Source: Acholoe squamosa
Lineage: Eukaryota; Annelida; Polychaeta; Phyllodocida; Polynoidae
Assembly (NCBI GenBank): GCA_949317995.1
Contig: OX439037.1
Span: 55,816,576-55,880,575, forward strand
Length of the DNA: 64,000 nucleotides
Reading direction: 5' to 3'
Part shown: positions 786-39,265 of the stretch, one piece after another
Numbering within the stretch: position 1 is the stretch's first letter
Layout: every line of letters starts with the position of its first letter
The notes under the pieces: model-generated
What the model was told of the DNA's origin: nothing
Seen by the model: the letters and a program-made list of their open reading frames with translations, nothing else
The model's database searches: none
Made by a program: the position numbers and the translations under genes

Positions 786-2000
786 CGTCCTACTCACCTG
801 TTCACCCACAGGTACCGTGACGACAGCATGGAGACTCAGTCACTATTCCTGGATGGAAATCTAGTCAAAGCAGTCCTATATAAAACAACAAAAAACGGAG
901 GAAGAGTGTGAATCTTTGCTGATGGCGTGTGTGAGAAAAGGAAGAATGAAAACAAACTGGATATGACTGGATTTATGTGACTATACACATTATTAGGCCT
1001 ACAATTCATGCCTAAACATGATCATGCATTAAAGAAGGACGATTTAGGATGTTTTTTTTTTCGAATCATTTTACTGATGACATATACATCAATACTAAAA
1101 TTGGTCATAGTCAGTGATAAAATGAAAAAGCACTAAATATTGTGATGCTCAGGAAGTTATTTCACTCAGCACTGATTTTCTAGATGGGCATTACTCTACT
1201 TCAGTTTGACTGTGCTTTTGTTTTACATGTTAGAGAAATATTCCATATACCGGCTTCCTTTTCCCCATGTGAATGCTTTGGCGCCTATGTTTATCGTATC
1301 ATACAGCACGTTTTGATGTCATACATAGAAGGGATGTACCCGAACTATTCTCTTTTCATGTCTCATTTTTTCAGTGCCCACTGTGTCCAAGACACCCCGT
1401 TTGAAATTGACCTCGAAATCGAATGCACCTACCTTCTAGAAAACCAACACGATCTACGCTTCAATCCCAGTCAGACCCGATTGGAGTAATCCAATTGTCG
1501 TATGAATAGACCTCCAATTTCTTCAAGAGTTAGAATCCAGTTTTCAAATATAAGAGAATGTATCCCACAATGCGTCCAAAGTGCATAGTACACAAGACGT
1601 CGCAATATGTCATACAAGTAGTGAACACACCGACAACTAGAAGGGCTTGAAATTGTCGTCTGGAGACTTGACCTAAATAGGTTACTGTGCACGTGCCCGT
1701 CACGGATGGTTGCATCTATTTCTACCCTTCTCGTCCTAATTAATGGCGTTCAGCGTTAGGGATTAGTCAGCTTAGCAGTAGCGAACAGAGTATTCTCCTT
1801 GAGTGGATTTCTAACTATGATTGGCTGAAGTCATTTCTTGCCGAGCAGATTCATTTTTTCGGTCAGGGCCACGCGCAGGTATGAAACGCAGACATTTTGA
1901 TTGTCTTTCCTTTTTTATCAAATGAGAGACATAATTCCTGTAAAACTGTGTCATTGAATTTTCAGGAATAGCACAGGCAAATGTAAAACGTGTAAGTTAA
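786..2000. other. No gene recognised
   Basis: AT-rich sequence. The small ORFs here (for example 1184-1489, plus) look like chance frames and have no recognisable domain. Nothing else is supported. Confidence 0.5.
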
Positions 2001-2142
2001 GAGGTCGTACATAAATTACGTCGCACCTTTTTCGGAAATTTTGAACACCCCCCACTCCCCCCCCCCCCGTCACACTTAGTCACAATCGAAAAATACCCCT
2101 CCCCCCACCCCCTCCTGTGTGACGTAATTTATGGACGGCCTC
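2001..2142. mobile_element. Short inverted-repeat element, 'GGCCGTCCATAAATTACGTCA' family
   Basis: A 142-bp element with about 26-bp imperfect inverted ends: GAGGTCGTACATAAATTACG on the left and its complement with GGACGGCCTC on the right. The interior is C-rich with 'GTCACACTTAGTCACAATCG'. The same ends appear at 14269-15353. It codes for nothing. I found no clear target duplication. Confidence 0.7.
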
Positions 2143-3182
2143 CAATTGGCATTGGCCAAATTCAAGTAAAATTGCCAGACCATTAGTCCCGGGCCATCAG
2201 TTGAAGCAACAACATAAACCCGTCTCATTTTGAAATGTACCCATTGAAAACTGCAATTATCCTTGATTGAAACCAAGCTGGATATATTTTCACAAGAGCT
2301 TGCGATGCTAGGCTACTGAGTATAAAAGAAATCCCGCCACTTGGTCTTCAGAAAAAGCCTTGAACATAGAGCAGCATATCTGGAAGACACTAGATATGAA
2401 GACCAAACTTAAACTTGGCTTATCCTAAACCCCCGTCAAAATACAATCATCTTTGGCCCTAAGCCAAGCCATTCTATTATGTTATCAGCATAATTATCCT
2501 CACGATCACTTGATCAAGCATACCTGAAAAAAATCATTTGTATGTTTATGTACTCTGTAGGAAGAAAAGATGAAGGAATAATCAATCAATCGCCCTTTTC
2601 TTTTTCACTAGTGGACAGGAGAGAATGTATGACTTTGACAAGTTCCTCCGATTTAATTGATAACCAAGTGAAAAATGTAAGCAATCTTTGGGAATCCAAA
2701 AAGGCTGTTATCACCTGAAGCCGGACATAGTTATGACTAGAGACATTCTTCTGAAGTCGGACACCCCTATTCTCCCATCTTTTCATAAGATAATGGAAAA
2801 TAATCATTTCCTGTGGTATGGAGATTCATAGTGATATCAGGATTTAATTAACCTGCATACCAGATGTAATATACAACAATTACACCACAGTAAGACTTAT
2901 CATTTGCTAATGTTAATGTGGAATCCCTTATCAAAAAAGAAAGAAAAAAACGGCCCATGATATACGCACGACCACGTCGTGTGTATTTGAATTATCTCCC
3001 GATTCTAGCCTCTACAGTGCCTTTTTGGTCATAACCCCCGTGTGTTATCAACCTATAACCCTACTCTGAGACCTTTTGTTCGTCTTCAAGAAGGTGCTAG
3101 TTTCAATCTGGACATCTTAATAAATTGGAGGAGTATACAAAGTCAACTCCTCCACACATGTCCAGTTAAAACCGTTCAGGGT
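2143..3182. other. No gene recognised
   Basis: Non-coding, AT-rich. The small palindrome at about 2960-2983 (tatacgcacgaccacgtcg) is the only structure noticed. Confidence 0.45.
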
Positions 3183-3262
3183 TCAATGGGGAATCGATCC
3201 CCGGCGAGCTCGCTGTCCACTATACCAAGCCGACCAGTGATAGAAGCCAATGCCCGTGGAGT
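3183..3262 (-). repeat. tRNA-derived SINE-like fragment
   Basis: Read on the minus strand, GGCTTGGTATAGTGGACAGC resembles a Pol III A box and GGGGATCGATTCCCC resembles a B box. The spacing is too short for a complete anticodon arm, so this is a tRNA-derived remnant and not a functional tRNA. Confidence 0.5.
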
Positions 3263-3489
3263 ATTTGAAAAAATTTTCCGACACACCTGATGTTTACACA
3301 CCTCGTTAGCATAGAATTCAGGACTTGACATGTTTGGAAAGACTGGTGAAGTAAAAACAATGGCTACGCTGGCTTGGCAAACCGTGCGGATTGGATGCAC
3401 TTACAAAATTTCTTCTCCTCCATTAAATACAGGGTTATAAGGTAAGAAATTAATACAAAATGGAGAAAAATGTGAGATAAACGCCTTAA

Positions 3490-3598
3490 TGTATGTTATG
3501 GGAGGGCACTCGTGGATTTACGGGTTGATAATCCACTCCCGCTGTGCGGTCGTGGATTATCAACCGGTAAATCCACTCGTGCTCTCCCATAACATACA
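3490..3598. mobile_element. Nearly perfect palindromic MITE with TTAA target duplication
   Basis: The arms TGTATGTTATGGGAGGGCAC... and ...GTGCTCTCCCATAACATACA are about 48 bp each and nearly complementary, with a short GC-rich loop around 3535-3550. TTAA lies immediately outside both ends (3486-3489 and 3599-3602), as for piggyBac-type insertion. There is no coding capacity. Confidence 0.75.
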
Positions 3599-3602
3599 TT
3601 AA

Positions 3603-4326
3603 ACGCATAGTATTGTACACACGACCGGGTTGTGGGTATAAGTACCCACTATACACACGACCATCTGAGAAACAGGACAGTTGTGAATATAAGGGTTACT
3701 CACACACAATAATATCTAAGACACGGGACAAGACATATTTTCTAAGACATGGGACTATATGAGAATACCTAAGACATGGGACCGTGATTATGAGAAAATC
3801 TAACTTATGATTGTATACGAGTCCCGTATCTCAGTTATTATGATAACTCTCGAGAAAATTATTTTGTCTCGTGTATTAGAGATGCATAGTCCCGTTTCCA
3901 ATATATTGTATTCCCTCTCTGTGTGTCCTGTGTGTTATATTCCTTTATTTTTCTAAAGAAAAAAAATAGCAATTACCAGGATTTGAAACCACTACTGTGA
4001 GGTCTGCAGATAGGCACCTTATCCATTATACTACCCTGGCAGATACAACTGGCAGGCTTTAATAGACAAATATAATATAGTACAGTGTGTCCTGTTTCTT
4101 GCATGTCCCGTTTCTTATATCCCCAATATTTTCCTGTTTCTTATATGTCCCCCTTCTTAAAAAATCTTGTCCAAATAAGCATCTTATTCGTGCATATAAT
4201 GGGTAGTTATACACACGGCCTGTTCGTGCATATAGCACATATCAATATGCACGACCTCGCGAAAATAACATGAGGGGAAATGACTAAACATGGAGGGGAC
4301 ATCGCTAATTTCTCTTTCTGTGTCTG

Positions 4327-4327
<1 letters not shown>
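3603..4327. repeat. Degenerate repeat with a tRNA-like segment
   Basis: Scattered copies of 'tacacacgacc' and 'acatgggac' motifs suggest an old repeat. On the minus strand at about 4047-3970, GGGTAGTATAATGGATAAGG looks like an A box and GTGGTTTCAAATCCTGG like a B box, with a weakly paired acceptor stem. It is better read as a tRNA pseudogene or SINE head than as a working tRNA. Confidence 0.4.

Positions 4328-4378
<51 letters not shown>
4328..4378. repeat. (CT)n microsatellite
   Basis: About 25 uninterrupted CT units. It creates artificial Ser/Leu and Arg/Glu ORFs on the two strands. Confidence 0.95.
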
Positions 4379-4381
<3 letters not shown>

Positions 4382-5587
4382 CTCTGTCTTTATCTCTCCA
4401 TCCTTTCCTCTAGTGCCAAATTGCCGTGAGCTCATGCATGCAGCTAGCAGGTACAGAGGTTATGCCAAATTGTCAGTTAGGCCAAAAGAGAAGTTGGGTT
4501 TCCAGTTACCCGACCGCTCCTAGCAAAACAGGACCAACCCTAACTATTTTCTTTTTAATTTTTGAGAATTTTGGCGAATTTTTAGGAGATGTTTTATATT
4601 ACTCATTAATTTTCATCAATTTTCCAGATTTTTCCTGTAATTTTCATATATTTCTATCTTGAGACTCATGTTAGCATGCATATTTTTCACCATTCTCATA
4701 TTTTTCATAGTTTTAAAATACAAATTTGATGAATGTGGCAAATCTACTCAAACATTTTTATACAAAATAATAGAAACAAAGTTTAAAAGGAAATCCGACC
4801 TACCTACCCTAGATATTTGAGGCATGTAATTGAAACACAACTTTTTTTGGGCTTAGCAGATACATAATTATGCCAAATACATGTGCCAAATCGTGAATTC
4901 AGGCAGTTAGCAGATACATATGCTATATAAACCAGTGAAATAAAAATGGTTCATATTTTGCGATACATGGATGGAAGTCTTGCTATGATATAGACATGCA
5001 ATGGTGCTTGGTCCACATTATGCACACGAAGAAAGCGAACTCAACATGTATTTGTAGGATTGCTGGTGGAGGGGGGGGGTAGGTACACGAATAGGCCCCT
5101 ATGTGATCTCGACAAATGCATGAAGGATGAAGGATGAACACGGATTAGAAACTTAAGCTTTAAGGCTTTGAAGGAGGTGCAAAGATCATTAGGCTAGTAC
5201 ATACAGTAGTCTTCTATTACTTATCAGGATGAATCTCTGAGATATCCCCCTCATATTTTGTGTTTAGTTTGTTTATTTTTTGGGGTTGGTGTTTGTTGTT
5301 GTTGTTGTGATAAAGGGTTTTATATTAGAGAGTGAATATCACATTGAACAGGTGTTGGCCGTGTTGGATCTCGATCTCGTATGCCTGCTTCCTCCGCCAT
5401 TGTGTAAACAGTCTGAGTGAATCGCTGCCAGGATTTAGGACACTGACCTGACCTTGCCTCCTTACCAGTAACACCACTTTTAGATAGATATAGTCCTAGA
5501 GAGTCGAGATCTGTCTGTACGCTCAGAGTTGGGACTACAAATGTTACCATTTTCTGATACCGTTGGGGACGGACAGTTATTAAAATC
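4379..5587. other. No gene recognised; upstream region of the first P450
   Basis: AT-rich with no coding signal. The last 200 bases probably include the P450 promoter and 5' UTR. No convincing TATA box was identified. Confidence 0.4.
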
Positions 5588-8500
5588 ATGGTAACTGTAC
5601 AAGATCTTCTTCCCATAACCTGGAATGGTATTAACATCATCCCAACTGTTGTAGCAGCTCTTCTTGGACTTATCACCTACCTTGTGGTGAGTTTTTATAG
5701 ACCATTTCTCTACGTTATTTCTACTATTTTATAGTTTGGCTACTCTGGCACTGCTTCCCTACTCCGAGGTCATATGCTCTAATTTTAATAGCGTGGTCCA
5801 GGTTATGTGCAAATTTCGAGGTATGTGGGGGAGGGGTATACAGATATCAAGGGCATGGGGCTACATTCAAGGAAAGAAAATCGTCATGGCTGTCACTCAC
5901 ATGACGTTTGAGAGCGTGGTGGACGTCAAGGGCTGAGTGTTGATTAAAAACCTCGGGCATGTGAAGAATGAGCTCCAATGATCTATTATGTTTATTATTA
6001 AATAATTTATCGACCTAGATCTTGTAGCAGTTTAGACTTTGGCACTATTGAAAATACGGTCTCTCAAACAAGCCCTAATCTTTCTCAATACTGCGAACAC
6101 CTTTTTTATCAATACAGATTATAACTCGGCGACCATCAGGCCTCCCACCAGGTCCTCCCTCTGTACCTCTGCTTGGAAGCATCCCTTTCCTGAAACATGG
6201 TGGTGCTGAATACTATAAGGAGTTCACCTTGCTGAGCAGAACCTATGGTGATATCTTTAGTATTGCTCTGGGACATACGTAAGTATAATGTTGTGAATTG
6301 CACATTCCAAAAATAAGTTTAAAAATAATATTAGACCAAAAAAGGGTATAATATTTGAATACACATTTTTTAATAGCGCCTCAAGTGACTGGGACACTTT
6401 GAGTCACTCACAGAGTTCTGCCAATGATCTGGGCTTCATCCTTTTATTTATCATTCATTCCTATGGGTGAAAAGGGATGGAGAGACATGGACTCATCATT
6501 CGTGGGTAGTGGATGCGGCCCTTAACACGATATCCGCAGTTAGAAAATAGAGATAGTCTGTCGACATGATAACTGTGATATGAAACTACTTTCCTGCATA
6601 ATCTACCCACCTTACCCGTGTCTATTACGGCATATCCACCTGATTGATTTTTTCATTGTTCTTCAGTATCACTCTCAGCCCGAATTGTAAATATGCAGCA
6701 CATGTGTACTAGTGTGGTACCTACACAACAACCCCAATCAGCTCGATAGGATTGTACTTACATGAACTCCTAGAATAAATAAGCAATCCACTGTAAAACT
6801 GGTTCGCTGGGCTGAGAGTGTATGTTGTATTAGTCTGGGTGTCTGGTAAAACTACAATTTTGTATCATGTTGGTAAATCCTTTCCTAGGTAGAGGATCAG
6901 TAACATTGTCTATCTACTTAGTACTTTATCTTTGGCTCTGTTTGAAAAGGATCATGTTAGTTGGGGAGCCAGTCTGGAATCAGGTCGACTACCTGGTGTT
7001 GAAAGCAGTACAAGATATCAGGGTTAGATCTGGGTAATTTGATAGTGCTGATTACGAATCTGAGATGCGCATCTTGATATCTAGGTCGGAACAAGGTTGA
7101 ACTAAAGGTCAAAGGTCAAGATCTGGTATTTAATATAGAACAGACAGAGGGCTTTGTTCCATTCGTTAACACTAGAGGTCCTTAGTGCATGGTGTATTCC
7201 CCATCTGTGTGTACCCCATATTGATTAGGACCCATTGCCAATGCATTGCCACCTTTGACCTTAAATCTGACCTTGTTCGTTCAGACCTAGATATCAAGAT
7301 ATGAGCTCAGATTCGTAATCAGCACTATCAAATTACCCTTATCCAACTGTCTTATATTGTGCTGCGCTCCACACCAGCAGAAAGTTAAATAACGATATTT
7401 GGGCTGTCTGGCTCCCCAGCTATGTGTTAATTTCTGCCAAATAAAGCCATATAAACTCAATTCAGTTCTTTGCAATTTGGCTTGAACGCTACGGTGCATA
7501 TTAATGTTTCATAATTATAGACTTCTCTTCACATGGACCTTATATAGCTGCACATTATCGTACTTGTGTTTATAATAATATGTACATTGACACTTTTCAC
7601 TTCGGACAGATGGGTTGTTGTTCTAAATAGCTATGATGTCATCAAGGAAGCTCTAGTCACCAAAGGATCTGATGTCGCTGGTAGAATTGACAACCCGAGA
7701 ATTGATCTTATATACAAGAACCCAAATATCAAAGGTTAGGACAACATCTAGTTTAGAAAGAAAATAAGTATCCAGACATATTGTAGTAGATTATGGCTAA
7801 CCCTCTAGGGAACTTTGATATATCAGTTATTTCCTAATGACTAGTTGTATTAAAAGAGGACTGTTCAGACAGACTTTTCAGATGAGAAAAACAATCATTC
7901 AACTAGTTGATGCCATCAGGAACAAATGCAAACAAGGACTGATTTCTTGATAGATTGCTCTTTCATTTCCAGGCATTATTGATGGAAACTTAACCCCAGA
8001 GTGGTCCAAGCAACGAAATGCTTCCCTCAACATTCTGAGGTCGCATGGATGGGGCAAGAGCAGCATTGAAGACAAGATGGCTAAGGAGAGAGATGTCCTA
8101 ATCGAAATTTTTAAGAAGAGTGCAAAGAGACCATATAATCCTGCATCTAGCATCAATACCTCTGTCATCAACATTATCTGCTCTATGCTCTTTGGAGAGC
8201 GCTTCAATCATGGTGACAAACAGCTGACTGTTATTATCAATAGTGTCAATGTCTTTGTTGCCACTGCAGCTATGGACTTTGAGTGGGACTATGTCCCTTT
8301 TCTCACTAGTCTCATCCCTGGTGTTTCCAAAATAAGGGATCAGGTCTTGGATGCATTTGGCACCCTTGATGAGTTCATAGAGAGTGAGATAGTTCTGAGA
8401 CAAAAGCGCCTTGAACAGAAACCAGATGAAGAACCAAGGGACTTCATTGAGAGCTACCTTAAAGAATTGGCAGCTAGTGCTGATGCTAAGAAAATGAAGA

Positions 8501-10488
8501 TGACAGAGAACTGGGTGAGGGAGATTGCCCAAGACTTCTTTCTTGCTGGATCAGAAACAACAACGACAACATTGAAATGGGCATTGCTTTACATGCTGCA
8601 TTTCCCAGAGGTGGCTGCAAAGGTACAGGAAGAGATGGATAGTGTAATGGGAAAACCCACAGGCCAAGGTGTTACAGGACTTGCTGACAGGGCACGACTC
8701 CCATATACAGATGCCACCATTATGGAGGTCCAGCGTCTCTCATCCATTTTGGCAACTTCCCTAACCCATTGTGTCACCAAGGATGTAAAGATTAAAGGTT
8801 ACCATCTTCCAAAAGGCACACAGGTAAGCAAACTTGGAGCAGGTAAAGATGGAAAAGTTGATTAACTTTAGCCTGGATGACCAAACATTATTGAATTTAT
8901 AATTAGGTACCCAAATTGATGTACTTACCTCAGAAATGATAGAGGAGTGGTTGAATGAAACATTAATACAAGCAGTAATACTCCTCTGTTTGAATATCAG
9001 TGGGGGGCTGTTTATTCCAACTTTGTATGATATATCAACTAGGTGCGCTACAATGTGTATGCCGTCCACCATGACCCCACCTACTGGGCAGATCCAGAGA
9101 AGATGAAACCAGAACGTTTCCTTGATGAAGATGGCAACATATGTAAAAATGAGCGGTGGATCCCATTTGGCATGGGTAGGTTTTAATATTAGAAGATTAG
9201 TCCATAATCGATTAGTATCATTAAAACAACATATTATCCTAAACATATAGACCATATTCAGAGGTACACCTGATAGAATATTCCCAAGTGTGCTTACAAG
9301 AAGGGTTGTCATAGAACAATAGTACAACATGTACAACTGCAATACTCAAGCTCCACCCCTTGCTTACAGCAGTATGCAAGGTTGGGGGGGAGGGGTGCAA
9401 CTCATATTGTAGATCTTGTAGGTTTTGTGGTGGTATAACCTTTGAGTGAAAGCCTATAGCTCTGACTCAGGTGTAGTGTATCCGTGGCCATGACAGTTCC
9501 GATCTCATACAAAAGTTGCCAGCCTCGCTCTGTGGTATACTGTTAAAATGTGTTGAAAAATGGTTCATGTGATCATGTCCAGGGGGCAAGATCCACGAAG
9601 TACCTAAAATATTAGCATGGGATTGCTGCCATTGAACCTTTCTCTCCAGGCAGCCCACTTGGCAGAAAACCCTTTTTAAACATAAAAAGAGCGTTTTTAT
9701 TTGGTTCCTAAGTTTGCCAAACATTTGTAGTTTTCACTGTAAAAAAAAAACAACAACAAAAAAACATGTCAAAACATGAGCTAAAAAAACGTTTTTTGAC
9801 GTTCTCATAGAAACGTTTTCATTTCAGGTTAAAAACCGTTTTTAATGTAAAAGAAATGTAAATAAAGAACGTTTTTATTTGGGTGAAAATTGGTTGAAAA
9901 AAAAAGTTTTTAGCATAACAAAACCCAAACCAAATAAAACGTTTGCAAACGTTGATAACGGTTTTTTTTTTGCCAAGTGGGACATGTTCACAATTTATGC
10001 CTGTGTAAAGGAGAGTGAAAGGGCATTATCCCCAGGGCATTATCCCACGATTAAGCCTGGCAAGCCTTGTTTGGAATAACATTGAGTCTTAAGGGATCAA
10101 ACTGCCCTGTTTGCCGACCTATTGTAGAACCTGTGACTATTATTGATGTGCATTTTGTCCAACAAGGATTTATGGTCACATTCCTTGGCCAGATTCACCT
10201 TTCAAATTGGTTAAGTGAAATATTTCCAATATCTATACTTACTCTTTATGATTATATCTGCTTTAATAAGTTGATTTTCAAGTTTATAACTGCACTGTTT
10301 TAGGACGCCGGAATTGTCTGGGGGAGCAACTCGCTAAACAGGAACTCTTCATGTTCTTCACTGGAATTATCCACAACTTCAATATCTGCCTACCAGAGGG
10401 AGACACACTCCCTTCACAGGAACCTGCCATTCCAGGAGTCATTCTCATACCCCCTCAGTATGAAGTGGTGTTTGAGCCAAGATTCTGA
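5588..10488 (+). CDS. Cytochrome P450, clan 2 (CYP2-like), copy 1, six exons
   Basis: Exons by GT-AG junctions: 5588-5686, 6118-6278, 7610-7734, 7973-8823, 9043-9175, 10304-10488. They sum to 1554 nt, a 517-aa protein with phases that join cleanly. The N-terminus is a hydrophobic anchor (residues about 16-36) followed by the proline hinge LPPGPPSVPLLG, typical of ER microsomal P450s. Visible motifs are AGSETTTTT (I helix, oxygen activation), EVQR (K-helix ExxR), KPERF (PERF region) and PFGMGRRNCLGEQ (heme-thiolate loop with the Cys ligand across the last splice site). All hallmarks are intact, so it is probably an active NADPH-reductase-dependent monooxygenase. The substrate cannot be inferred. 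A tandem paralogue lies at 17928-24854. It resembles vertebrate CYP2 members broadly; no orthologue is claimed. Confidence 0.93.
6958..7421. mobile_element. Long-TIR non-autonomous DNA transposon in P450 copy 1 intron 2
   Basis: Inverted arms of about 145 bp start TAGTTGGGGAGCCAG at the left and end CTGGCTCCCCAGCTA at the right. The inner arms share GGGTAATTTGATAGTGCTGA and its complement. There is no ORF. It lies between exons 2 and 3 and does not disturb splice sites. Confidence 0.65.
9654..9981. mobile_element. MITE with CCCACTTGGCA termini in P450 copy 1 intron 5
   Basis: The ends are CCCACTTGGCA and TGCCAAGTGGG. The interior is rich in AACGTTTTT motifs. A one-ended relative occurs at 47580-47690. 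It is non-coding. Confidence 0.65.
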
Positions 10489-27924: not shown

Positions 27925-30900
27925 CTATACTATACTATACTATACTACGTGCATGTTCCCTGGGTAACCAGGGTGCTCCCTAGGGGTAGGGCGGCTATGC
28001 ATTTTCCCATATGTTGAGTTGTTTTTCTATCATGTCTAGTTTGGATGCTGTCCTCTTAAGTAGGGTTAGGTTGTCAGTGAAGATGTCTTCTAGTTTGATT
28101 TGGGTTGTGGAGTCTTGGTTGTTATGTATGGTTGGGCACGTTTCTAGTAGGTGTTGTTGGGTTTCTGGAGTGTGGCCACACCCCCTACACTCTTGTGTGT
28201 GGTGCATTTTCCTGTAGTTATCTTTCGCTCTTATCATTCTGGTTCTGGCCATGAAGATTCTCCTTGCTTGTTCTTTAGTTAGTTTGGTCAGGTAGTCATG
28301 GGATTCGCAGCTGTATTTCCTTTTGTTTTCAGTCAGGTAATTGAACTTGCTTTTTTTTACGCCGGTTGTTTTCATGCAGAGTGCTTGTTTTGCCTTCACT
28401 GCTTTCTTTATGGTCGTTTTGCGCTTGGTGGTGGGTAGGTCTGTCAGTATGTTGATCGGGGTTTGGAGTTCTTCGGATGCTTTTTTGGTCTTCTGTATCC
28501 ATGAGGTCGGTCTTGCTCTCGTGTTTGCTATTGTGATCTCTTCGCCTTGGGATTTAGTTATTTTGGTCAGGTAGTTGACCTGTAGTTCTAGGATTCTGTG
28601 TTCTATGTCAAGGATTCTAAGCTCATCATATATGCATTCCCTTGGGGTTGCTTGGGGTAGTCGTAGGATTCTTTTTAGTTGGTTGTCTAGGATTTGGTTG
28701 AGGGCATCAGTGTCTTTTTTCCTTGTGTTCCATGTTTCAGCACCGTAGGTTATTGTCGGGATGATGCAGGTCTCCACGAGTTTCCAGATAGTTTCAAGCT
28801 CTATGTTGTTGTAGTTTTCATTGCCCGCTATGTATAGGACCGTTTGTAGGGCTCCCTCTGCTTTATTCTTTATCGTGTCTATATGGTCGTCTAGGTTATT
28901 CTTTGAGTTGAGCGTTTCGCCCAGGTACTTGTATTTGTCTGTTTTCTCTATTTCCATGTCGTTGATTTTGGGGTTGTCAGGGTTAGTCGTTGTTCCAATT
29001 TGTAGTATTTTTGATTTGTCTTTGCCGAATACTACTCTTAGGGTGTTTGAGACTTTTTCTGTTATCTTTAGCACTGTGTGTTGGTCTTGGATATTGTTTG
29101 ATACAATAGCTACATCGTCTACCCAAAGCAGGCATCTTGTGTATTCATCCACTGTGATTTCTCCTGCTTGTTTCAGGTTGTTAATTTTCTTTGCTATTTC
29201 ATCCATTAGTAAGGCATACTGTGTCACTGCTAGTACTCCTCCTTGTCTTATGCTGTCGTTTATGGCTATCGGTCGTGTTGGGCCGTGTTTTGTTTTGATA
29301 GTGGCCGTCAGGTTTTTGTTGAGTTTTTCGGTGAGTATCCATGTGTCAAGGGCGCAGCCGTTTGATGCCATTACATCCATGATTCCTTCTAGCCATGCTT
29401 TGTCATATGCCTTTGTGACGTCTAGAAATGAGATATATGTTGGTTTATTGTGGCTTTTGTTGATTCTGATGGTTTCCTTGAGTTTTAGTATGTGGTCAAC
29501 TGTTGCTTGGCCTTTCCTGCCTCCTCCTTGGGCTGGTGTTACTCTTACTTGGTTTAAGATTCTAGTGTTAAGCATTCTTTCAAATACTTTTCCAGCGTTG
29601 CTAGAGAGGGTTATGCCTCTTTCGTTACTGCATTTGCCCTTCTTTCCTTTACCCTTGTAGATGCTTATTACTTCGCCTCTGCTCCATTCTGGTGGGATGT
29701 CTTTGTCCCTTGCGATTTTGTTGAGTGCATCTAGGTATATTTCGCGGGTGTTACGGTTGGCTTCTATGAAGATGCTGTTGGGTATATTGTCGGGTCCGTT
29801 GGCTTTGTTCCTGTGTAGTTTGCTGATGGTTTTGTTGAGTTCTTGTAGGGTGAAGGGTTCAAGGGTAACTGGGTTGGCTGAGCGTCTTGCTTTGTTGCGG
29901 TCTAGGATGGCCTTGTTGTCGGTTAGGCATTCTTCTCTTGGGGGTCTTGGTCTGTAGAGGTTCTCGTAGTAGGAGGCTACGTGTTCTTTAGCTTTGTCGG
30001 GGCATTTCAGGATGTTGTTGAGTTCGTCGAGTATGTCTGGGGTGTTGTCTGAATTTGGTTTAAGCAGCCTTTTTCTTGTTTTCCAGAAGTGGTTGGATTT
30101 TGTGCCTCCCTCATTTGTCATCTTTTTTGCTACGGTTGTTATACGGTTTTTCTCTTCTGTTGAATATAGGTCTATGGTCTCTTTCTGGAGCTTGTGGAAG
30201 TCGTCTCTCCTCTTGGTGATTTTGTCCAGAGATTCCTTGTCTCTTATTGCTTTCTGATATCTTTTTTTTGCTGCTTTTACCTTTACTCTGCCTAATCTCT
30301 GTTGTTTTGTCTCAGGTTTATTTCTGCGTAGCTTTATAGTTGCTTTCCCTATGGCCCTGTGCAGGTTTTCTTTGATAGTTGTGGTTAGGCTTGTGTAGTT
30401 ACTGCGTATGTGCGGTGGTGTGTGCTCCATAAGGGTGTTGAACATTGACCATTGTTGAGGGGTGCCTTTTTTCCATACTTTCCTTGTGGTTGTGGGTGGC
30501 CTGGGTATTTTTGAGGGTATTTCAAAGGTTATGGTGTTGTGGTCAGTTGGGTTTTTCCCTTGTAGGGTGAGGTCTCCGCTTTTGTCGACCGTGGCGTTCT
30601 GTATTGTTTTCATTACTCTTTCTTCCATGAGGATGAAGTCTATTATTGACTTTTCGTCATTGTTCCTGCGGTTTTCTCTTGTCCAGTGTATACAATTTTC
30701 GTTGGTGTTAAGTGGGCACATTCCAAGTTGGGTCATCAGGTTGGTTAGGAGTTTGCCATTTCTGTTTTCCTCCTGTCTGTAGTTGGGGTGTTCTATCTTG
30801 ATTTTTGCATTGAAGTCGCCTATGAGTATTACCTCTCCTTTTTGGCGGAGTCGGATTGTTGATGAGGCTATTGTCTGGTATTGTCTTAGTACTTCTTCTG

Positions 30901-31190
30901 TTAGGATTTTTTCCTGGGGTCCGTAGTATGCTGCTATGTAGAGGGGGTTGGGGCGTGTATCGACTGCTATCCAGGTGATCTCGTGATCATCATGATCGGG
31001 TATCAAGAGTTCTTTTGTGCTTGGGTAGAGGTTGTCAGCAATTAGGAATCCAACACCACCGCCTGTGCGGTTTTTTCTTGGCCTGTGGTACCATGTGTAG
31101 CCTTCTATTTTCGGTGGTTTTGTTGCCCTGGTCTCTGCTATGATGGCTATGTCGGTTTTTGTCATGTTTAGTATTGTTTAGTATTATTAG
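27925..31190 (-). mobile_element. APE-type LINE, 5'-truncated, with (TAGTA)n tail
   Basis: It inserted into the GTGG-ended transposon. The uninterrupted copy (51180-51220, reversed) reads 'CATTATAAGTATTTATGATA' where this element begins and ends, and TATA is present at both junctions. The 3' end on the minus strand is a short UTR with a CCCTGG/CCAGGG hairpin and then five to six TAGTA units. The 5' end stops about 25 bases before the ORF's first ATG. Confidence 0.75.
27995..31165 (-). CDS. LINE ORF2: AP endonuclease and reverse transcriptase, 1056 aa
   Basis: One uninterrupted frame. The endonuclease shows AETRA (Glu ligand, about residue 11), GDFNAK (116-121), SIIDFIL (about 173) and DHNTI (about 208). 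The reverse transcriptase shows FLDVTKAYDKAW (580-591), RQGGVLAVTQYALL and WVDDVAI (681-687, in place of the more common YADD). A CCHC-like finger (ECRGCGHTPETQQHLLETC) lies near the C-terminus. The usual first endonuclease strand with its Asn is missing and an in-frame stop lies just upstream, so the copy is 5'-truncated and probably inactive despite the intact frame. The function is target-primed reverse transcription. The clade is not assigned. Confidence 0.9.
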   Translation of the reverse strand: MTKTDIAIIAETRATKPPKIEGYTWYHRPRKNRTGGGVGFLIADNLYPSTKELLIPDHDDHEITWIAVDTRPNPLYIAAYYGPQEKILTEEVLRQYQTIASSTIRLRQKGEVILIGDFNAKIKIEHPNYRQEENRNGKLLTNLMTQLGMCPLNTNENCIHWTRENRRNNDEKSIIDFILMEERVMKTIQNATVDKSGDLTLQGKNPTDHNTITFEIPSKIPRPPTTTRKVWKKGTPQQWSMFNTLMEHTPPHIRSNYTSLTTTIKENLHRAIGKATIKLRRNKPETKQQRLGRVKVKAAKKRYQKAIRDKESLDKITKRRDDFHKLQKETIDLYSTEEKNRITTVAKKMTNEGGTKSNHFWKTRKRLLKPNSDNTPDILDELNNILKCPDKAKEHVASYYENLYRPRPPREECLTDNKAILDRNKARRSANPVTLEPFTLQELNKTISKLHRNKANGPDNIPNSIFIEANRNTREIYLDALNKIARDKDIPPEWSRGEVISIYKGKGKKGKCSNERGITLSSNAGKVFERMLNTRILNQVRVTPAQGGGRKGQATVDHILKLKETIRINKSHNKPTYISFLDVTKAYDKAWLEGIMDVMASNGCALDTWILTEKLNKNLTATIKTKHGPTRPIAINDSIRQGGVLAVTQYALLMDEIAKKINNLKQAGEITVDEYTRCLLWVDDVAIVSNNIQDQHTVLKITEKVSNTLRVVFGKDKSKILQIGTTTNPDNPKINDMEIEKTDKYKYLGETLNSKNNLDDHIDTIKNKAEGALQTVLYIAGNENYNNIELETIWKLVETCIIPTITYGAETWNTRKKDTDALNQILDNQLKRILRLPQATPRECIYDELRILDIEHRILELQVNYLTKITKSQGEEITIANTRARPTSWIQKTKKASEELQTPINILTDLPTTKRKTTIKKAVKAKQALCMKTTGVKKSKFNYLTENKRKYSCESHDYLTKLTKEQARRIFMARTRMIRAKDNYRKMHHTQECRGCGHTPETQQHLLETCPTIHNNQDSTTQIKLEDIFTDNLTLLKRTASKLDMIEKQLNIWENA

Positions 31191-32846: not shown

Positions 32847-33214
32847 GCCTGGCCAAGATGGGTAAATGATGGTAAGTGTCAGGGAAGCCAGCTGGGGCCC
32901 ACATGGGCTAGCCCAGTTCACTGTATGATCCGAAGGTCGATGGTTCTAGTCCGAGCAGTGACAGCTACTCTTCCCATTGTCTCATAGCTTTACCAATGTT
33001 CCTAAATATCTTTCGATCTCATTATTCTTGAGAATAAAAGAAATGAAAACACCAAAACATAAAGAATCATTTTGTTCCATTCTTTATAAAGTGGGCAAGG
33101 GTCTCGAGCTGAAAAAATGGTGTGGACGTGTTGGGACTAGATCCACCGATCTTCGGGTCAATAGTCCAGTGATCAACCTACTGAGCTAACCGGGCAGCTG
33201 TGATAGTCATAGTA
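32847..33214. repeat. Left inverted arm with tRNA-like ends (SINE-like)
   Basis: Closely matches the reverse complement of 39985-40394. On the minus strand at 33196-33137, GGTTAGCTCAGTAGGT (A box) and GGTGGATCTAGTCCC (B box) resemble a tRNA head. A second B-box-like segment faces the other way at about 32928-32955 (GGTCGATGGTTCTAGTCC). No complete tRNA fold is possible. Confidence 0.65.
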
Positions 33215-33230
33215 AAAATCTCCCTAGTAA

Positions 33231-33420
33231 CCTAAAGACACACATAAGGACCCACACAGGGGAGAAACCTCATGTGTGTTCATACTGTGGTAAAGGATTT
33301 AGTCAGTCAGGTAACCTAAAGTACAACATAATGACCCACACAGGAGAGAAATCCCATGTTAGTTCACTTTGTGATAAAAGGTTCACAGATAGACGTAACT
33401 TATGTCAAAAGACTGTAATG
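33231..33420 (+). pseudogene. C2H2 zinc-finger fragment, left part
   Basis: Encodes THTGEKPHVCSYCGKGFSQS-type fingers with the linker HTGEK. One finger has Asn replacing the first His (LKYNIMTH) and the last has Ser replacing the first Cys (HVSSLCDKRF). The frame breaks where the LINE begins and resumes at about 39266. No start codon or upstream exon was seen. It is a degraded zinc-finger gene segment, perhaps cargo between the inverted arms. Confidence 0.75.
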
Positions 33421-33642
33421 GCCATCAGTGAGTGAGTCTACCTTGAGAGCGTGTGACTATTTCTTCGAATTTGAAGAGGATAATAGTGCAGCAACTTCAC
33501 CAAACCTTCAGGGAGGCTTATTGAATGTCTGGTGCCAAGCCCGACAAGGTTTTCATATGAAAAAACCTATTTTTTAACCCCATTTTAAGTGTTTTTTAAT
33601 ATTAGACTGTCATCGAGTGGACGATATTAGGGGTCGCTAAAC

Positions 33643-35505
33643 TTGGACTTACCTGTGCTCACCTGGTTTCAACAGCGCGACAGCCGGCTACACGACTACA
33701 ATGGCGGAGAGACAAGACCAAAGAGTGAACACATACCCCTCACAGAGGCTATCAGGGACCTAAAAACATTAAACCTGGGTAGAAAGGACTCCCCAATAGC
33801 AGCCCTACAGGAAAAAACAGGAGAGGCACTGAACCTGTACAAGGAGGAAGCCATTACAGTAGGTGAAAATATCAGGTGGAATTATGACGAAATAGTTCAA
33901 CGTAAAAACAAAAATGATACACTAGAAAGTGAACTAAAACATTTAAAATCTGAAATGGCTGAGGTACAAAGAGCTACTAGGGTAAATAGAACCACCATTG
34001 AAGATAATAAGGAGCTAATCTCAGTGTTAGACAATAACTTGAGGAGGCGAAACATAGTGGTTGATGGACTGGTCTACCAAGAAGGTGAGCGCACTAAGGA
34101 TGTAGCCTACAACTTGCTATTAGGCATTGACCCATCTCTTGACTATTATGATATAGATTATGCTTTCCGCCAGGGCCCACCAAATAAAGCCATACGTACC
34201 ATGGTCATTGTTATGACAAAGGCTTGTGCAAGAGACTATATATTATCAAGAAAAGGAGAGTTGAAACACAAGAAACCATTGGTTTTTTGTCAGATGACTC
34301 GAACCCTGCCATAAAAAAAGCAAAAATCAGATGTTAGATCCATAGCCTATTTGGGTCAGGAGGTGGGAATAGACGTCAAACCAAGAGGGAGAGGCTTGTT
34401 GGTTAATGGAAAGTTCTACCCACACAGGGCGCTGAAAGACCTCCCCCCCCCCCCCGAGCTACAACTTGCAAATGCAAAGACAGTGGTCACAGACAATTAT
34501 GTAGCATATCAAGGAGAGTTAGCCCCGCTGTCAATCTTCTATGAGTGTAAAATCGAAGCAAATGGATTAACATTTCGCAGTGTGGAGCAAGGTTTTGCCT
34601 ATGCCAAAGCTAAATTTGCAGGAAAACACTCAAAAGCCCAAAAAATCATGGACTGTGAATCACCTTTGGATGCAAAGAAAATTGCAAAATTTGAATGTGA
34701 GGGGTGGCGCAATATTGATGAAGATGAGCTCCAAGCTTTGAACATCTTAAAGTATGAACAGGACAAAAATCTTCTAAAAATACTACTTGGTACTGGGCAT
34801 AGGAAGTTACTGGAATGTGTTGCATCCCCCCATTGGGGAACTAATACATCGATAAACTCAAAACTATTGAAAAATGGATCATACTCTGGCAAAAACAAAG
34901 GTGGTATAATCCTCATGGAGGTCAGGCGAATCCTACGTGAGAGATATCCAGACCTAGCCAAAGAAGTGATGAAGGAAACCAACCCCAATACAGTTAATGC
35001 ACAACAGGCTGCTACAGCACCAGTGACCACAGCTCCTGCTGTACCAACTCCCACCTTGACCACGACTTCTACCCCTCCAGTACAAGGGACACAGGAGACA
35101 GTACAGACTACAATTGCTGCCCATACTACAGCTGCCCATGATACGGCTGCCCCGTCTACAACTGCACATACCCCTCCAGTACATACAACAATGAGCAACC
35201 CCCCACCAGAAGGCACCACAGCACCTGCAGTGAGCATTAATGACAGAACAACTCAAGCCAACACCAAGCAAACTATAACCATGGAGGAGCTACAGGCTGC
35301 CCACGGTTCCCCTCCTCCAAGAGCAACTACCACAACCACATATTCAGCCACTGCACAGAATCCTATCATGTCAACCAACAGAAGGTCAAGTACTAGACAA
35401 CAGGATAAATCAAAAAAACACTCTGATAAAGAAAAAATTGAAAAAAGTCAGGGGTCGAACAAGCTACAACGAATGCTTACCGCGTTCAGCCCTAATAAAA
35501 GATAG
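33643..35505 (+). pseudogene. LINE ORF1: coiled coil, RRM-like domain and C-terminal NADAR domain
   Basis: The first part (33643-34314) has a Glu/Lys-rich helix (ESELKHLKSEMAEVQ) and an ORF1 RNA-binding core (RRRNIVVDGLVYQEGE, YAFRQGPPNKAIRTM). The frame breaks at 34312; a shifted frame there reads SDDSNPAIKKAK, so two compensating indels (T6 and A5 runs) probably caused the stop. From 34351 the protein reads on through a C14 run into a NADAR domain (residues about 59-200 of this block): FRSVEQGFAYAKAKF, EGWRN, ILKYEQDKNLLKILLGTGH, SPHWGTN and GKNKGGIILMEVRRIL, all matching the YbiA/NADAR pattern. A Thr/Pro/Ala-rich linker and a basic tail follow. NADAR enzymes act on ADP-ribose-linked substrates. 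An ATG in good context at 33701 lies in another frame, so the true start also lies behind an indel. Confidence 0.8.
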
Positions 35506-36188
35506 TTCTAATAATTTTTCAGTTAGACATGACATACCAATTGTTCACAAAAGCATTATGCTGATACAGGACTAAGTGTATGTACCTCTGATTGATCATA
35601 TGATTGTCATGAAATATTGTAGAAGGGACTGTTTTGTTTCTGTTCCTATGTATATATAACTGACTATAAGCTTTGTTAACACCCTGCAAATAATAACAAA
35701 ATCTTTGTCTATTATTACTATGATGCACTCTGAACTGGGTCAATGGACGCGCTTGATACCTCTTAATATTATACCAACACTCACCCTAGCCGGCCGCGTC
35801 CAAAAATAACTGTGTTCCATATTAAGACTACAGCGTCTCCGGGTCATTGGACACGCTTGGTTTAACATTGAAATATACCAGGTCGAGCTGACCCACTGAA
35901 CTCTAGCCTAGAGTAAACAACACCTAGCCGACTTGTACTAGTCTATTTATATAACGAAACATGATTTTAACCTCGTTACTATCAATTTGACTTCTTACGT
36001 TCTCATAACCATTAAAGCAATGCACTTAATCAATGTATATATTTTTCTTAGAACCTGTCCACGCTCCAGACCCCCCCCTTCTGCAATGACAGTCATACAG
36101 TCTAAATATGCCTCTACTGTGATCACTTCTCACATCTATCATTCATATCATCCATACTACATATACAATATCATAAGGTGCTATCAAA
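35506..36188. other. Spacer between LINE ORF1 and ORF2
   Basis: Non-coding 680 bp with two 'ggtca(a)tggacgcgctt'-like repeats at about 35740 and 35840. An eroded ORF2 start is possible. Confidence 0.4.
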
Positions 36189-38978
36189 ATGGTAGTATTA
36201 GATAATATTAAGTCACAAAAGGGTCTTAAGATATTCTGCACAAACACTCGCTCTATATATGGTAAAAGGACTGACACTTTTAGGCTAATTTCATACTCTG
36301 ATATCACTGATATTGTAGAATCATGGTTAAAACCTTCAGTACTGGATGCTGATCTACACATCCCAGGCTATCAGTATGTTAGGCTAGATAGGTATCCAAG
36401 CATAGATAAAAACGCTGGCGGCCTTATGCTGTATCTAAAAGATTACTATATTGCTATTCCTGATCTTACCTGCTCCTTCATAGAAAATGATTTTGAAACA
36501 CTATGTGTAGACGTTCAAATTAATGTAATAAAATATAAGATCTTTGTATGCTATAGACCACCTGATAGTAAAGATAAAGGTGCAATATATAATAAATTAA
36601 CCTCACTTTTGAAAAATGTAACAAAAATAGAAAGCTTATACTAATGGGAGATTTTAATATTAATCTATTATGCAAAAAGGATGTTGAAGACGCTACTGTG
36701 AATGAATCATTAATGATATCACCAGACCTGTATCAGGGACTATATTGGATCATATCTATACAAATGTACATAATATTGCCCACTCTGGCTTGGTTGACGT
36801 ACACATCTCGGACCATACCCCCATATTCATGACTTTAAAATGTGAAAATGTCAAACTAAAGATAAAGATTGTATATGCTAGGTCCTATAGAAGATATGAT
36901 TTCTTAGCTTTCAAAAACATGCTCACAGAACATGACTGGAATGATATAGTAGCTTTAAATGATGTCGATGAAATGTGGAATAGGTTATAAATGTGATTTT
37001 GACTAAACTGAATAGCATATGCCCCATAAAAAGGATGAACATACCAGATTACACACCACCATGGCTAACACAACCGATATTAGAACTAATGAGGGTACGA
37101 GACAAACTTTATAGAAAGGCCAGGTTCACTAAATCAGACGGTGACTGGGCTGCTGCCAAGCATTATAAGCTCATAGTGAAACGAGAACTTTTTTACAGCC
37201 AGAAGCATGAAATTGAACTATTATTAAGATTTAGAAAAACAGACCCAGCCAAATTCTGGGATGCTATACATAAACTCCTACCACATAAAACCAGAAGTAC
37301 CCTCATTAAACTTAGAAATCGGACTACTAATTTAATTGTTCCTCCTGATGTATGCGCTGAGTACATAAACAGCTTCTTCGTAAATATGAGGGAAGACTTA
37401 GCAAAAGCTCTACCACCTGGAGAAGGGGTGCCAGTGGCTAATGTACCATATGGAAATCCAATCTTGAACACTAACCTCATGTATGATATCTCTTATATTG
37501 ATATGATTAAAGTGATAAAAGAAATTAATATCAAGAAACCTTCTGCTATAAAGAATTGTAAATCATTTATAATCAAAGATGCTTTTTTTGCTATTGCAGA
37601 TGTAATATTGGTATTATATAATCAGTGTCTACGCACTTCAGTATTTCCGTCTGTTTGGAAAGCTGGGACTGTAATCCCCCTACATAAAAAAGCAAACTCT
37701 CTTGATGTAAATGATCTTAGGCCTATAAGTTTACTACAAATACCAGGTAAAATTTTGGAAAAGATTGTATGTAATAGACTCCAGTTCTATATGAAAAACT
37801 GTAATTTACTTTGCCCATCTCAGCATGGATACAGGGCTGGACATACCACTCAGTCTGCAATAACGGAACATCTATCGACTATTATTAATAACATTATATT
37901 AAACAAGCCTTCATACTGTCTATATCTAGACAACAAAAAAGCTTTTGACACTGTTTCACATTCTAAGTTACTAGAAAAAATGTCCGCTCTAGGTCTGGAC
38001 TTTGCTACTTGTAAATTGTTTGAAAATTATCTTAATAACAGAACACAAAATACTATTGCAAACGATGTACTGTCCACCTCAAAAAATTTGAAATATGGAG
38101 TCCCGCAGGGATCAGTTTTAGGTCCTGTGCTTTTCTCCGTCTATATTAACTCCCTCCCCACTGTCGGGTCTTTTGAAACCACCTTATATGCTGATGATGC
38201 GGTTATAACCGTAAATACTCCACTAGAAATGGAAAATGCCATAAAAGCAGTGTACAACTGGTGTCTACATAATTCACTTACTGTCAATGAAAAGAAAACC
38301 AAATGGATGTTATATAATGGTACAAAAAACAAAAATAGCATATTTAAGTTAAAAAATTCTGAACTAGAGAGAGTGTACAGTTTTACGTACTTGGGTGTGG
38401 AACTCGACCCAGAACTAAAATTCATAAATCATAGGGCAAAATATACAAAGAATATAAGGCATAAAATTTTCCAACTGGCTAGAATTAGAAAATTTGTTGA
38501 TAATTCTACTGCTCTGGACATTTTCAAAACTATGATATTACCAGCTTTTGACTACTGTGATTTTGTGTGGGATAGGGATTATAGAGGAGAAACAAAAGAA
38601 TTACAATTACTACAAAATTGGGCATTAAGGGTTGTTTATAAAGTTAAATTGGAGGAAAATCCAACCATGACTACAGAGCAAATTAAAAACGCAAGTAAAT
38701 GTATGGAACTTGCTGATAGAAGAGATCAACATCTTCTATTCTATGCCTTTTACTTGTCAAAGAGTGAAAACCTGGTCGACAATAGAAACATACCCACTCG
38801 TTTTCATCAAGGGAAAAGATTGTTATTGCCACATAGTCTTAAACCCTATGTCATTCGAAGCGCTTTATTTAGAGCTTGTGCCAGATGGAATCAACTAAAA
38901 GCTAAATATACAACCATTGAGACCCTATCTGAGTTTAAAAACTCTATTAAGAAAGACTACCCAGACTGTTTTATGTAA
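36189..38978 (+). pseudogene. LINE ORF2: endonuclease and reverse transcriptase, frameshifted
   Basis: It is read across four frame segments: 36189-36644, 36644-36720, about 36720-36990 and 36993-38978. Endonuclease motifs are FCTNTRSI, ESWLKP, GDFNIN, LDHIYTN and SDHTP. Reverse transcriptase motifs in the last segment are LDNKKAFDTVSH (about 312-323), YGVPQGSVLGPVLFSVYIN and LYADDAVI (398-405). These place it in the broad Jockey/CR1-like group. At least three single-base shifts, near 36625, 36716 and 36983, break the frame. A C-terminal region with RALFRACARWNQL follows, and no cysteine finger was seen. Confidence 0.85.
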
Positions 38979-39265
38979 TTTGTGTGGCTATGAAAGACTA
39001 ATTCTCATACTCATCTCATCTCATCATTAATCGATCGATCGCTAAAGCTTTTGAAATCGTTTTTGATACGGTATCAATGACATACTGTTGATGTTCATTG
39101 CAGTTAAAGGGCCATTACTGATTAATTTTATATACCAAGACTGTCTTAATCAGAATTGAAATATGAAGGGGGCTTGGTATAATTACCACAATGTGTGGGC
39201 ACCAGGTTTCAATTGCACTTACTTTGTAAATGTAATTATCCCAATAAACAACTTTAAAAAAAAAC

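Follow-up and report, generated by a model that had tools for sequence, protein, structure and literature searches.

Does a LINE (long interspersed nuclear element) of the polynoid annelid Acholoe squamosa carry a NADAR domain as a regular part of its first open reading frame (ORF1), and what would the domain do there? The question is raised by a 64,000-nucleotide stretch of the genome (assembly GCA_949317995.1, contig OX439037.1, positions 55,816,576 to 55,880,575 of the forward strand), here called the window, in which positions are counted from the first letter. The original prediction, made from the letters alone, read the frame at 34351..35505 as a LINE ORF1 with a NADAR domain. Our data support NADAR as a regular part of ORF1 in the LINE family to which this copy belongs; the domain is predicted to have the YbiA fold, keeps ADP-ribose-site residues and is under purifying selection.

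The Window Frame Encodes a NADAR Domain

The 34351-35505 translation is a single open frame of 384 residues. When compared with PF08719 it scored 74.5 bits (cut-off 35.1; E = 1.6e-20) over profile positions 14-163 of 163, which placed the domain at residues 61-196 of the translation (window 34531..34938, + strand). All nine further ORF1s scanned also exceeded the cut-off. In a phmmer search against PDB the translation matched 8bau (E = 3.4e-4) and YbiA, 2b3w (E = 0.0049). A profile was also built from eleven NADARs of the same genome: nine from LINEs, that of the window and that of the probable host gene L029 (L numbers denote loci). It reached 8bau at 1.3e-25 and 2b3w at 4.4e-20. A PDB match to ASCC3 (8alz; E = 0.015, and 0.99 with the ORF1 profile) was missing from the fold-search rows and was taken as chance.

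An AlphaFold2 model of the window NADAR had a mean pLDDT of 89.6 and a pTM of 0.86. Its input alignment set the window domain against 39 NADARs from bacteria and viruses (24-32% identity), taken from 89 fetched loci; L103 was excluded for a stop. Foldseek at E ≤ 0.001 returned only 8bau (E = 4.1e-8, TM 0.82), a NADAR structure with ADP-ribose, and 2b3w (E = 1.1e-7, TM 0.76); together these are the two solved NADAR-fold proteins. By profile and model, the window domain is a member of the NADAR superfamily with a predicted YbiA fold, as had been proposed.

NADAR Is a Regular Part of ORF1 in a LINE Family

Twenty regions around further matches were fetched from the same 1.48 Gb genome. The blastn comparison among copies revealed a common element of ∼5.87 kb, with both ORFs open in 4 of the 20 (L011, L012, L013 and L018; ORF1 frame 585-625 aa, ORF2 939-943 aa). 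The 939-aa ORF2 of L012 and L018 matched RVT_1 (6.3e-35 and 7.3e-35, respectively) and Exo_endo_phos (2.4e-6 and 1.6e-7). The 5′ end is common to 15 of 18 window-family copies, and the other three begin inside, L027 by ∼415 bp. Copies that reach the 3′ end terminate in CCCAATAAACAACTTTAAA and an A-run, with a variant in L025 and L026; in the flank read-out the A-rich 3′ terminus appears as AATAAACAACTTTAAA and an A-run. Self-comparison of L012 detected no repeats ≥150 bp inside 1263-7130, i.e., no long terminal repeats (LTRs). With an ORF2 that encodes an endonuclease and a reverse transcriptase (RT), no LTRs, an A-rich 3′ end and 5′-truncated copies, the element is a LINE (non-LTR retrotransposon). 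A search of 17 copies brought up no clear target-site duplication, and the sole long repeats (L018, L027) appear to lie inside tandem repeats. The intact L018 copy lies within a tandem array whose period is ∼80 bp (L018:16-1231 and 7030-9001).

Fifteen open ORF1s align end to end in the order coiled coil, core resembling an RRM and C-terminal domain (RRM/CTD-like), NADAR, Thr/Pro linker and tail, each with NADAR at L012 residues 273-411. A query that joined the RRM/CTD-like part to NADAR yielded 133 genome rows, of which 99 span query residue ≤20 to ≥258; identities cluster mostly at 83-100, 61-70 or 54-57%. An N-terminal ORF1 query, free of NADAR and hence without bias toward it, gave 152 genome matches. 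Among the best 150 of 152, a NADAR match was found within 2.5 kb on the 3′ side of 121. This proximity count used 107 of 115 earlier genome matches, the omitted 8 starting beyond NADAR. The original prediction had asked for NADAR in every family copy: this holds for those 121 and, of the remaining 29, for L045, the one that was fetched.

Approached from the other side, with an ORF2 endonuclease query, NADAR lies 0.6-2.4 kb upstream at 86 of 150 places, and upstream of 19 of the 34 matches with frames ≥900 aa, in both cases among the matches listed. Here the RRM/CTD-NADAR query rows were combined with non-overlapping earlier matches, overlap being judged by eye. Places without NADAR may be truncated copies, or their NADAR may fall beyond the matches listed; a NADAR-free variant of the family may also exist.

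The core in front of NADAR had been called typical of a LINE ORF1. Its order, coiled coil followed by an RRM/CTD-like region, recurs in the 15 aligned ORF1s, but the RRM label is weak. A Pfam scan of three intact ORF1s (L012, L018 and L025) detected neither RRM nor Tnp22 at E ≤ 1, and an eight-core ORF1 profile found LINE-1 ORF1p structures at E = 0.017-0.22, below an unrelated top match at 0.0059. A single-sequence model of the window RRM-like part (pLDDT 39.7) was discarded. The label is drawn from the sequence pattern and this weak evidence.

NADAR in ORF1 Is under Strong Purifying Selection

For pairs of the 15 open ORF1s, median dN/dS was 0.046 for NADAR, 0.040 for the RRM/CTD part, 0.139 for the N-terminal coiled-coil part, 0.49 for the Thr/Pro linker and 0.11 for the tail, so that NADAR lies ten times under the linker. 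The sample comprised 15 of the 20 fetched copies (L023, L024, L026, L027 and L028 were omitted for stops or truncation, and L001-L008 were unused). The medians include pairs with finite dS >0.1 (80 of 105 for NADAR, 82 for RRM/CTD, 86 for the N-terminal part, 96 for the linker and 81 for the tail), and the most diverged pairs, those with L025, are absent from most of them. In five pairs simulated under a simple model, NADAR replacement counts were under all 2000 neutral draws each, and in the same pairs NADAR had fewer replacements than the linker (Fisher p 7.5e-8 to 0.0024). Preselection of open frames removes stops, not replacements.

These data show that (i) NADAR in the LINE ORF1 is under strong purifying selection; and (ii) the acquisition of NADAR by the retroelement, as first proposed, is borne out by its regular presence in the family ORF1 and by this selection. 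The selection extends to the residues presumed catalytic, as the prediction had asked: the equivalents of E43, K50, W89, E125 and W133 (Phytophthora nicotianae NADAR numbering) are invariant in the 15 aligned copies, and the E125 codon alternates between GAA and GAG.

NADAR Occurs in Several Unlike LINE Types

When the genome was searched with the Pfam NADAR profile, 3224 candidates emerged at first look, and the best 150 of 3224 were scored; all 150 exceed the Pfam cut-off. Together with 129 query rows holding ≥50 NADAR residues, which by eye do not overlap the scored candidates, at least 279 places in the genome code for NADAR, broken ones included. The two top-scoring NADARs (L029 and L030) probably belong to host genes. 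The L029 frame, 222 aa long, reaches 59% identity with NADARs of bacteria, L030 groups with it, and no RT was found in the 3.45-kb L029 locus.

Six further NADAR regions (L037-L042) were selected, non-randomly, for long frames. In all six, NADAR lies in ORF1 and is followed by an ORF2 with RT. The L039 ORF2 is L1-type (E = 4.1e-74 to human L1 ORF2p), and L038 has a third ORF2 type (E = 2.7e-26 to L1 and 7.8e-19 to R2). From their motifs, we take the ORF2s of L037, L040, L041 and L042 to be CR1/L2/Jockey-like. The window-family ORF2 is far from L1 (E = 5.1e-15 to human L1 ORF2p vs. 4.1e-74 for L039 of the same genome), and by this ORF2 distance the family is placed outside the Tx1/L1 group; presumably it is also of CR1/L2/Jockey type, judging from the motif GVPQGSVLGP and a length of ∼940 aa. 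In L037, L039, L040, L041 and L042, as in the window family, an RRM/CTD-like core precedes NADAR; the L038 ORF1 has NADAR without a recognizable RRM. NADAR thus occurs in several unlike LINE types of one genome, not in one LINE only; its presence in ORF1 beside very different ORF2s, one of them L1-type, had been overlooked in the original prediction.

That NADAR is a chance passenger of one copy, or an assembly artifact, would suit the broken state of the window copy. This was rejected and retains a negligible probability: NADAR is present in 15 open ORF1s, 99 of 133 matches reach from the RRM-like part across NADAR, the domain is under purifying selection, and unlike LINE types carry it.

Several other features accompany these elements. 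At L038:559-2832, the 757-aa ORF1 has NADAR followed by a GNSNARG-containing part with a weak SASA esterase match (E = 0.072), and its ORF2 is 1167 aa long. Directly behind this element, at L038:6530-9002, are frames of 650 aa (RT/RNase H-like) and 200 aa (tyrosine recombinase-like), by eye DIRS-type-like. ORFs of ∼215-265 aa that have the motif GGFNDLC in common lie behind NADAR ORF1s (L037:2440-3240 and 3356-4090; L036:116-760, - strand). Neither L037 ORF had a Pfam match; from the motif, we presume that these ORFs perhaps encode an SGNH-hydrolase-like accessory protein. L042 has an extra 240-aa ORF between ORF1 and ORF2 (3066-3788) with a weak match to PF21641 NarE (E = 0.0011; 19.7 bits, under the cut-off of 27). 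A second, different NADAR (∼91 bits with the genome-NADAR profile) is found in L023:3301-3753 (+) and L024:3331-3783 (+), on the strand opposite the window-family copy; in L023 it has Met at the K50 site and His at the D130 site.

One RRM/CTD-NADAR Fusion or Several

Profile comparison shows homology between the RRM/CTD core of the L037 family and that of the window family (probability 98.1%). It also gave weaker links, from the window family to L039 (90%), L040 (88%) and L042 (56%), and from the L037 family to L040 (90%), L042 (86%) and L039 (85%); single-sequence comparisons among the L039, L040 and L042 cores gave no link. Between the LP-type motif in the CTD-like part and the SNF-type motif in NADAR lie 31-32 residues in L012, L041, L037, L039 and L040, and 55 in L042. 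The core homology and the junction suggest a single ancestral RRM/CTD-NADAR fusion common to elements with L1-type and non-L1-type ORF2. One fusion under unlike ORF2s would therefore imply exchange of ORF1 between LINE lineages, which has been argued for other ORF1 types (PMC4120745). The L038 NADAR looks like a separate event.

The trees leave the fusion history undecided. An RT tree of 10 rows was nearly unresolved, with no starred branches. In the NADAR tree, from which the near-duplicates L033, L034, L035 and L024b were omitted, the non-host NADARs as one clade were neither rejected nor demonstrated (p-AU 0.306); one clade without L038 was rejected at 0.030, in a test picked after the tree had been inspected. 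It is conceivable, though we think it unlikely, that the RRM/CTD-NADAR module passed as a unit between LINE superfamilies and was kept against a host guanine-ADP-ribose defense acting on retroelement RNA or cDNA. If so, NADAR would be a widespread retrotransposon counter-defense, exposing an unknown defense by nucleic-acid ADP-ribosylation.

The ADP-Ribose Site Is Largely Retained

In P. nicotianae NADAR, E43 contacts the distal ribose, W89 and W133 the pyrophosphate, and D130 the pyrophosphate through water; in E. coli C7 NADAR, K95 (equivalent to K50) is needed for efficient hydrolysis, and R at that place permits hydrolysis in vitro (PMC11543638). By alignment, the window equivalents are Glu at 34585..34587 (E43), Lys at 34606..34608 (K50), Trp at 34705..34707 (W89), Glu at 34813..34815 (E125; D171 in E. 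coli C7 NADAR) and Trp at 34834..34836 (W133), all on the + strand.

The P. nicotianae contacts were also aligned onto 15 non-host NADARs of very different sequence. An ORF2 or endonuclease was seen near 11 of them (L012, L018, L025, L041, L037, L038, L039, L040 and L042, and, by matches, L043 and L044); L031, L032, L036 and L023b were outside that check. E43, W89 and E125 are retained in all 15, 14 have K or R at the K50 site, where L023b has M, and K75 is kept in 13. W133 is replaced by F, Y or M in 6 of the 15. The D130 site is S or C in six window-clade rows, H in L040 and L023b, and D in the other seven; in the window clade the loop at D130 is one residue shorter and R93 is acidic. R79, Y84, D86 and R93 are poorly retained, including between the two solved proteins. 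A glutamate at the E125 site defines the YbiA subfamily (PMC11543638), and because E125 is kept in the window and in all 15 non-host NADARs, the aligned sequences assign the LINE NADARs to that subfamily under this definition.

LINE ORF1 proteins are generally known to coat RNA, and the window clade has lost D130 and R93. Both facts would suit a domain that is non- or barely catalytic and serves ORF1p in RNA binding or ribonucleoprotein (RNP) assembly. SNA-3, an essential NADAR protein of the nematode trans-splicing RNP whose first NADAR is without the key residues, may work in this way (PMC9303266). The retention of E43, W89 and E125 in 15 of 15 divergent non-host NADARs is unexpected from RNA binding alone, and we consider this structural role, the main rival to an enzymatic one, to be on the unlikely side while deserving serious weight.

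A Possible Role in Erasing ADP-Ribose from Guanine

The reading that we tentatively favor, with confidence not quite reaching an even chance, is that ORF1p-tethered NADAR erases guanine-linked ADP-ribose from element RNA, cDNA or nicked target DNA. ORF1p, with its coiled coil and RRM/CTD-like core and with NADAR fused behind the CTD, would bind the element's own RNA and bring NADAR with it; the tethered domain would meet element RNA, cDNA and target DNA, and would hydrolyze ADP-ribose off guanine, undoing modification by a host ADP-ribosyltransferase. What we infer here is that ORF1p binds RNA, that NADAR is catalytically active, that guanine-ADP-ribose is its substrate and that it serves to protect the element.

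Guanine-ADP-ribose is favored because NADARs act on guanine in single-stranded DNA (ssDNA) and RNA and because animal guanine-specific transferases exist. Among hydrolase families, NADARs alone are reported to strip RNA guanosine of ADP-ribose, and they also act on ssDNA (PMC11833690, PMC11543638); the known transferases include the butterfly pierisins and clam CARP-1 (PMC11543638). Other observations weigh on the opposite side. The loss of D130, the shortened loop and the acidic R93 in the window clade may mean that affinity or substrate differs. The non-DarT NADARs assayed, although active in vitro, were inefficient antitoxins against guanine ADP-ribosylation (PMC11125620), and riboflavin intermediates are a further NADAR substrate, in bacteria as well as in plants (PMC11543638).

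The substrate might also be small. NADAR could act on ADP-ribose derivatives of host defense, such as signals or RNA-repair by-products, rather than on element nucleic acid, a role proposed for phage NADARs (PMC9503650). The same source argues that eukaryotic RNA-virus NADARs in polyproteins target mainly macromolecular ADP-ribose, and fusion to a coat protein favors a local macromolecular substrate, so we regard small derivatives as distinctly improbable.

LINE integration nicks DNA and PARPs go to nicks, as is generally known, and NADAR might strip ADP-ribose from proteins, e.g., at PARP-decorated nicks during target-primed reverse transcription. The known NADAR activity is on guanine, NADARs are inactive on the phosphate-end ADP-ribose of RNA and DNA (PMC11833690), and the literature passages at hand name no protein substrate of NADAR; a protein substrate is therefore given very little credence here. 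Erasure from guanine remains the reading that we favor.

The Window Copy and Its Surroundings

The window LINE copy spans 33415..39258 (+), from a 5′ start at GTAATGGCC to the same 3′ terminus and A-run as its relatives; the boundaries are those common with other copies by blastn, together with the flank read-out. An in-frame stop at 34312-34314 splits ORF1 into two halves in one frame. The 5′ half (33631..34314, +), with the coiled coil and RRM-like core, is homologous to the open ORF1s of the 15-copy alignment, and the 3′ half (34315..35505, +) holds the remaining CTD-like part, NADAR, the Thr/Pro linker and the tail. The predicted ORF1 at 34351..35505 therefore includes NADAR, linker and tail as described, but the frame opens at 34315 and is only the 3′ half of ORF1. 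The linker (34939..35265, +) is rich in Thr, Pro and Ala by the composition of 15 relatives and fast evolving by dN/dS, and the tail (35266..35502, +) is net basic by the same composition.

The downstream ORF2 that had been described with endonuclease and RT is present, but in three pieces, all on the + strand. The endonuclease 5′ part (36177..36644) is the same sequence that begins intact ORF2s, the endonuclease 3′ part (36706..36990) matches intact ORF2s, and neither has a Pfam match of its own; the third piece (36984..38978) carries the RT (RVT_1, E = 3.3e-34). With a stop in ORF1 and ORF2 in three pieces, this copy is decayed and dead. Its insertion split a C2H2 zinc-finger (HTGEK-type) coding stretch, found at window 33190-33435 and just past 39258.

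The whole window has one NADAR and two RTs. The other RT belongs to a second LINE (27995-31177, - strand) with a 1060-aa open ORF2 that has RT and endonuclease. No NADAR was found near it, but its ORF1 was not identified, so this weighs little.

Relation to Known Systems and Meaning

The original prediction knew of no described LINE of this kind. This does not stand: NADAR has been reported, in one sentence on a Repbase search, in ORF1 of several Crassostrea gigas Tx1 LINEs, and also in an Ectocarpus Gypsy Pol (PMC12477816, Genome Biol 2025). The Tx1 LINEs are likewise non-LTR retrotransposons with NADAR in ORF1; L039, with its L1-type ORF2, may be of their kind, and in contrast the window-family ORF2 is far from L1. 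The Ectocarpus element is also a retroelement with a captured NADAR, but it is an LTR element that carries the domain in Pol rather than in the ORF1 of a LINE. In the passages of PMC12477816 consulted, LINE NADARs are analyzed neither for selection or active site nor across clades. The open-access literature searched yielded no NADAR in a non-L1-type LINE, no account of selection on or the active site of LINE NADARs, and no report of several NADAR LINE types per genome. As far as that literature goes, what is new is the range of LINE types with NADAR, together with the junction they have in common, the selection and the conservation of the pocket.

CR1/L2 LINEs with an esterase or PHD in ORF1 are alike in having an accessory ORF1 domain and in ORF1 swapping between LINE lineages; the ORF1 domains reported there are RRM, CCHC, PHD, Tnp22, esterase, zinc finger and leucine zipper, and the word NADAR is absent from the main text (PMC4120745). 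With the DarT1-NADAR toxin-antitoxin system (PMC11543638) the LINE NADAR shares the fold and the residues corresponding to E43 and K50, which the window domain has as well. It differs in having Glu, not Asp, at the E125 site and no adjacent partner frame: apart from ORF1 and ORF2, L012 and L018 have no + strand frame ≥150 aa between the element ends. Nidovirus, hepe-like and picornavirus polyproteins likewise place NADAR in the replication protein of a selfish RNA-based invertebrate element (PMC9503650); these are viral, and the likeness is one of description, not of sequence. Viral contigs searched with the window-clade NADAR gave 15 pattern matches and no relatives.

Reversible ADP-ribosylation of guanine has been described for toxins and for bacterial toxin-antitoxin systems, and the LINE NADARs bear on the question of what animals and their parasites retain NADAR for. 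The pocket is kept in the ORF1 coat protein of several unlike LINEs, and what it erases would tell whether the host marks retroelement nucleic acid. ORF1 is a place where LINEs collect enzymes, perhaps exchanged across superfamilies, and NADAR in unlike LINEs hints that jumping genes and host are engaged in a conflict that has yet to be studied.

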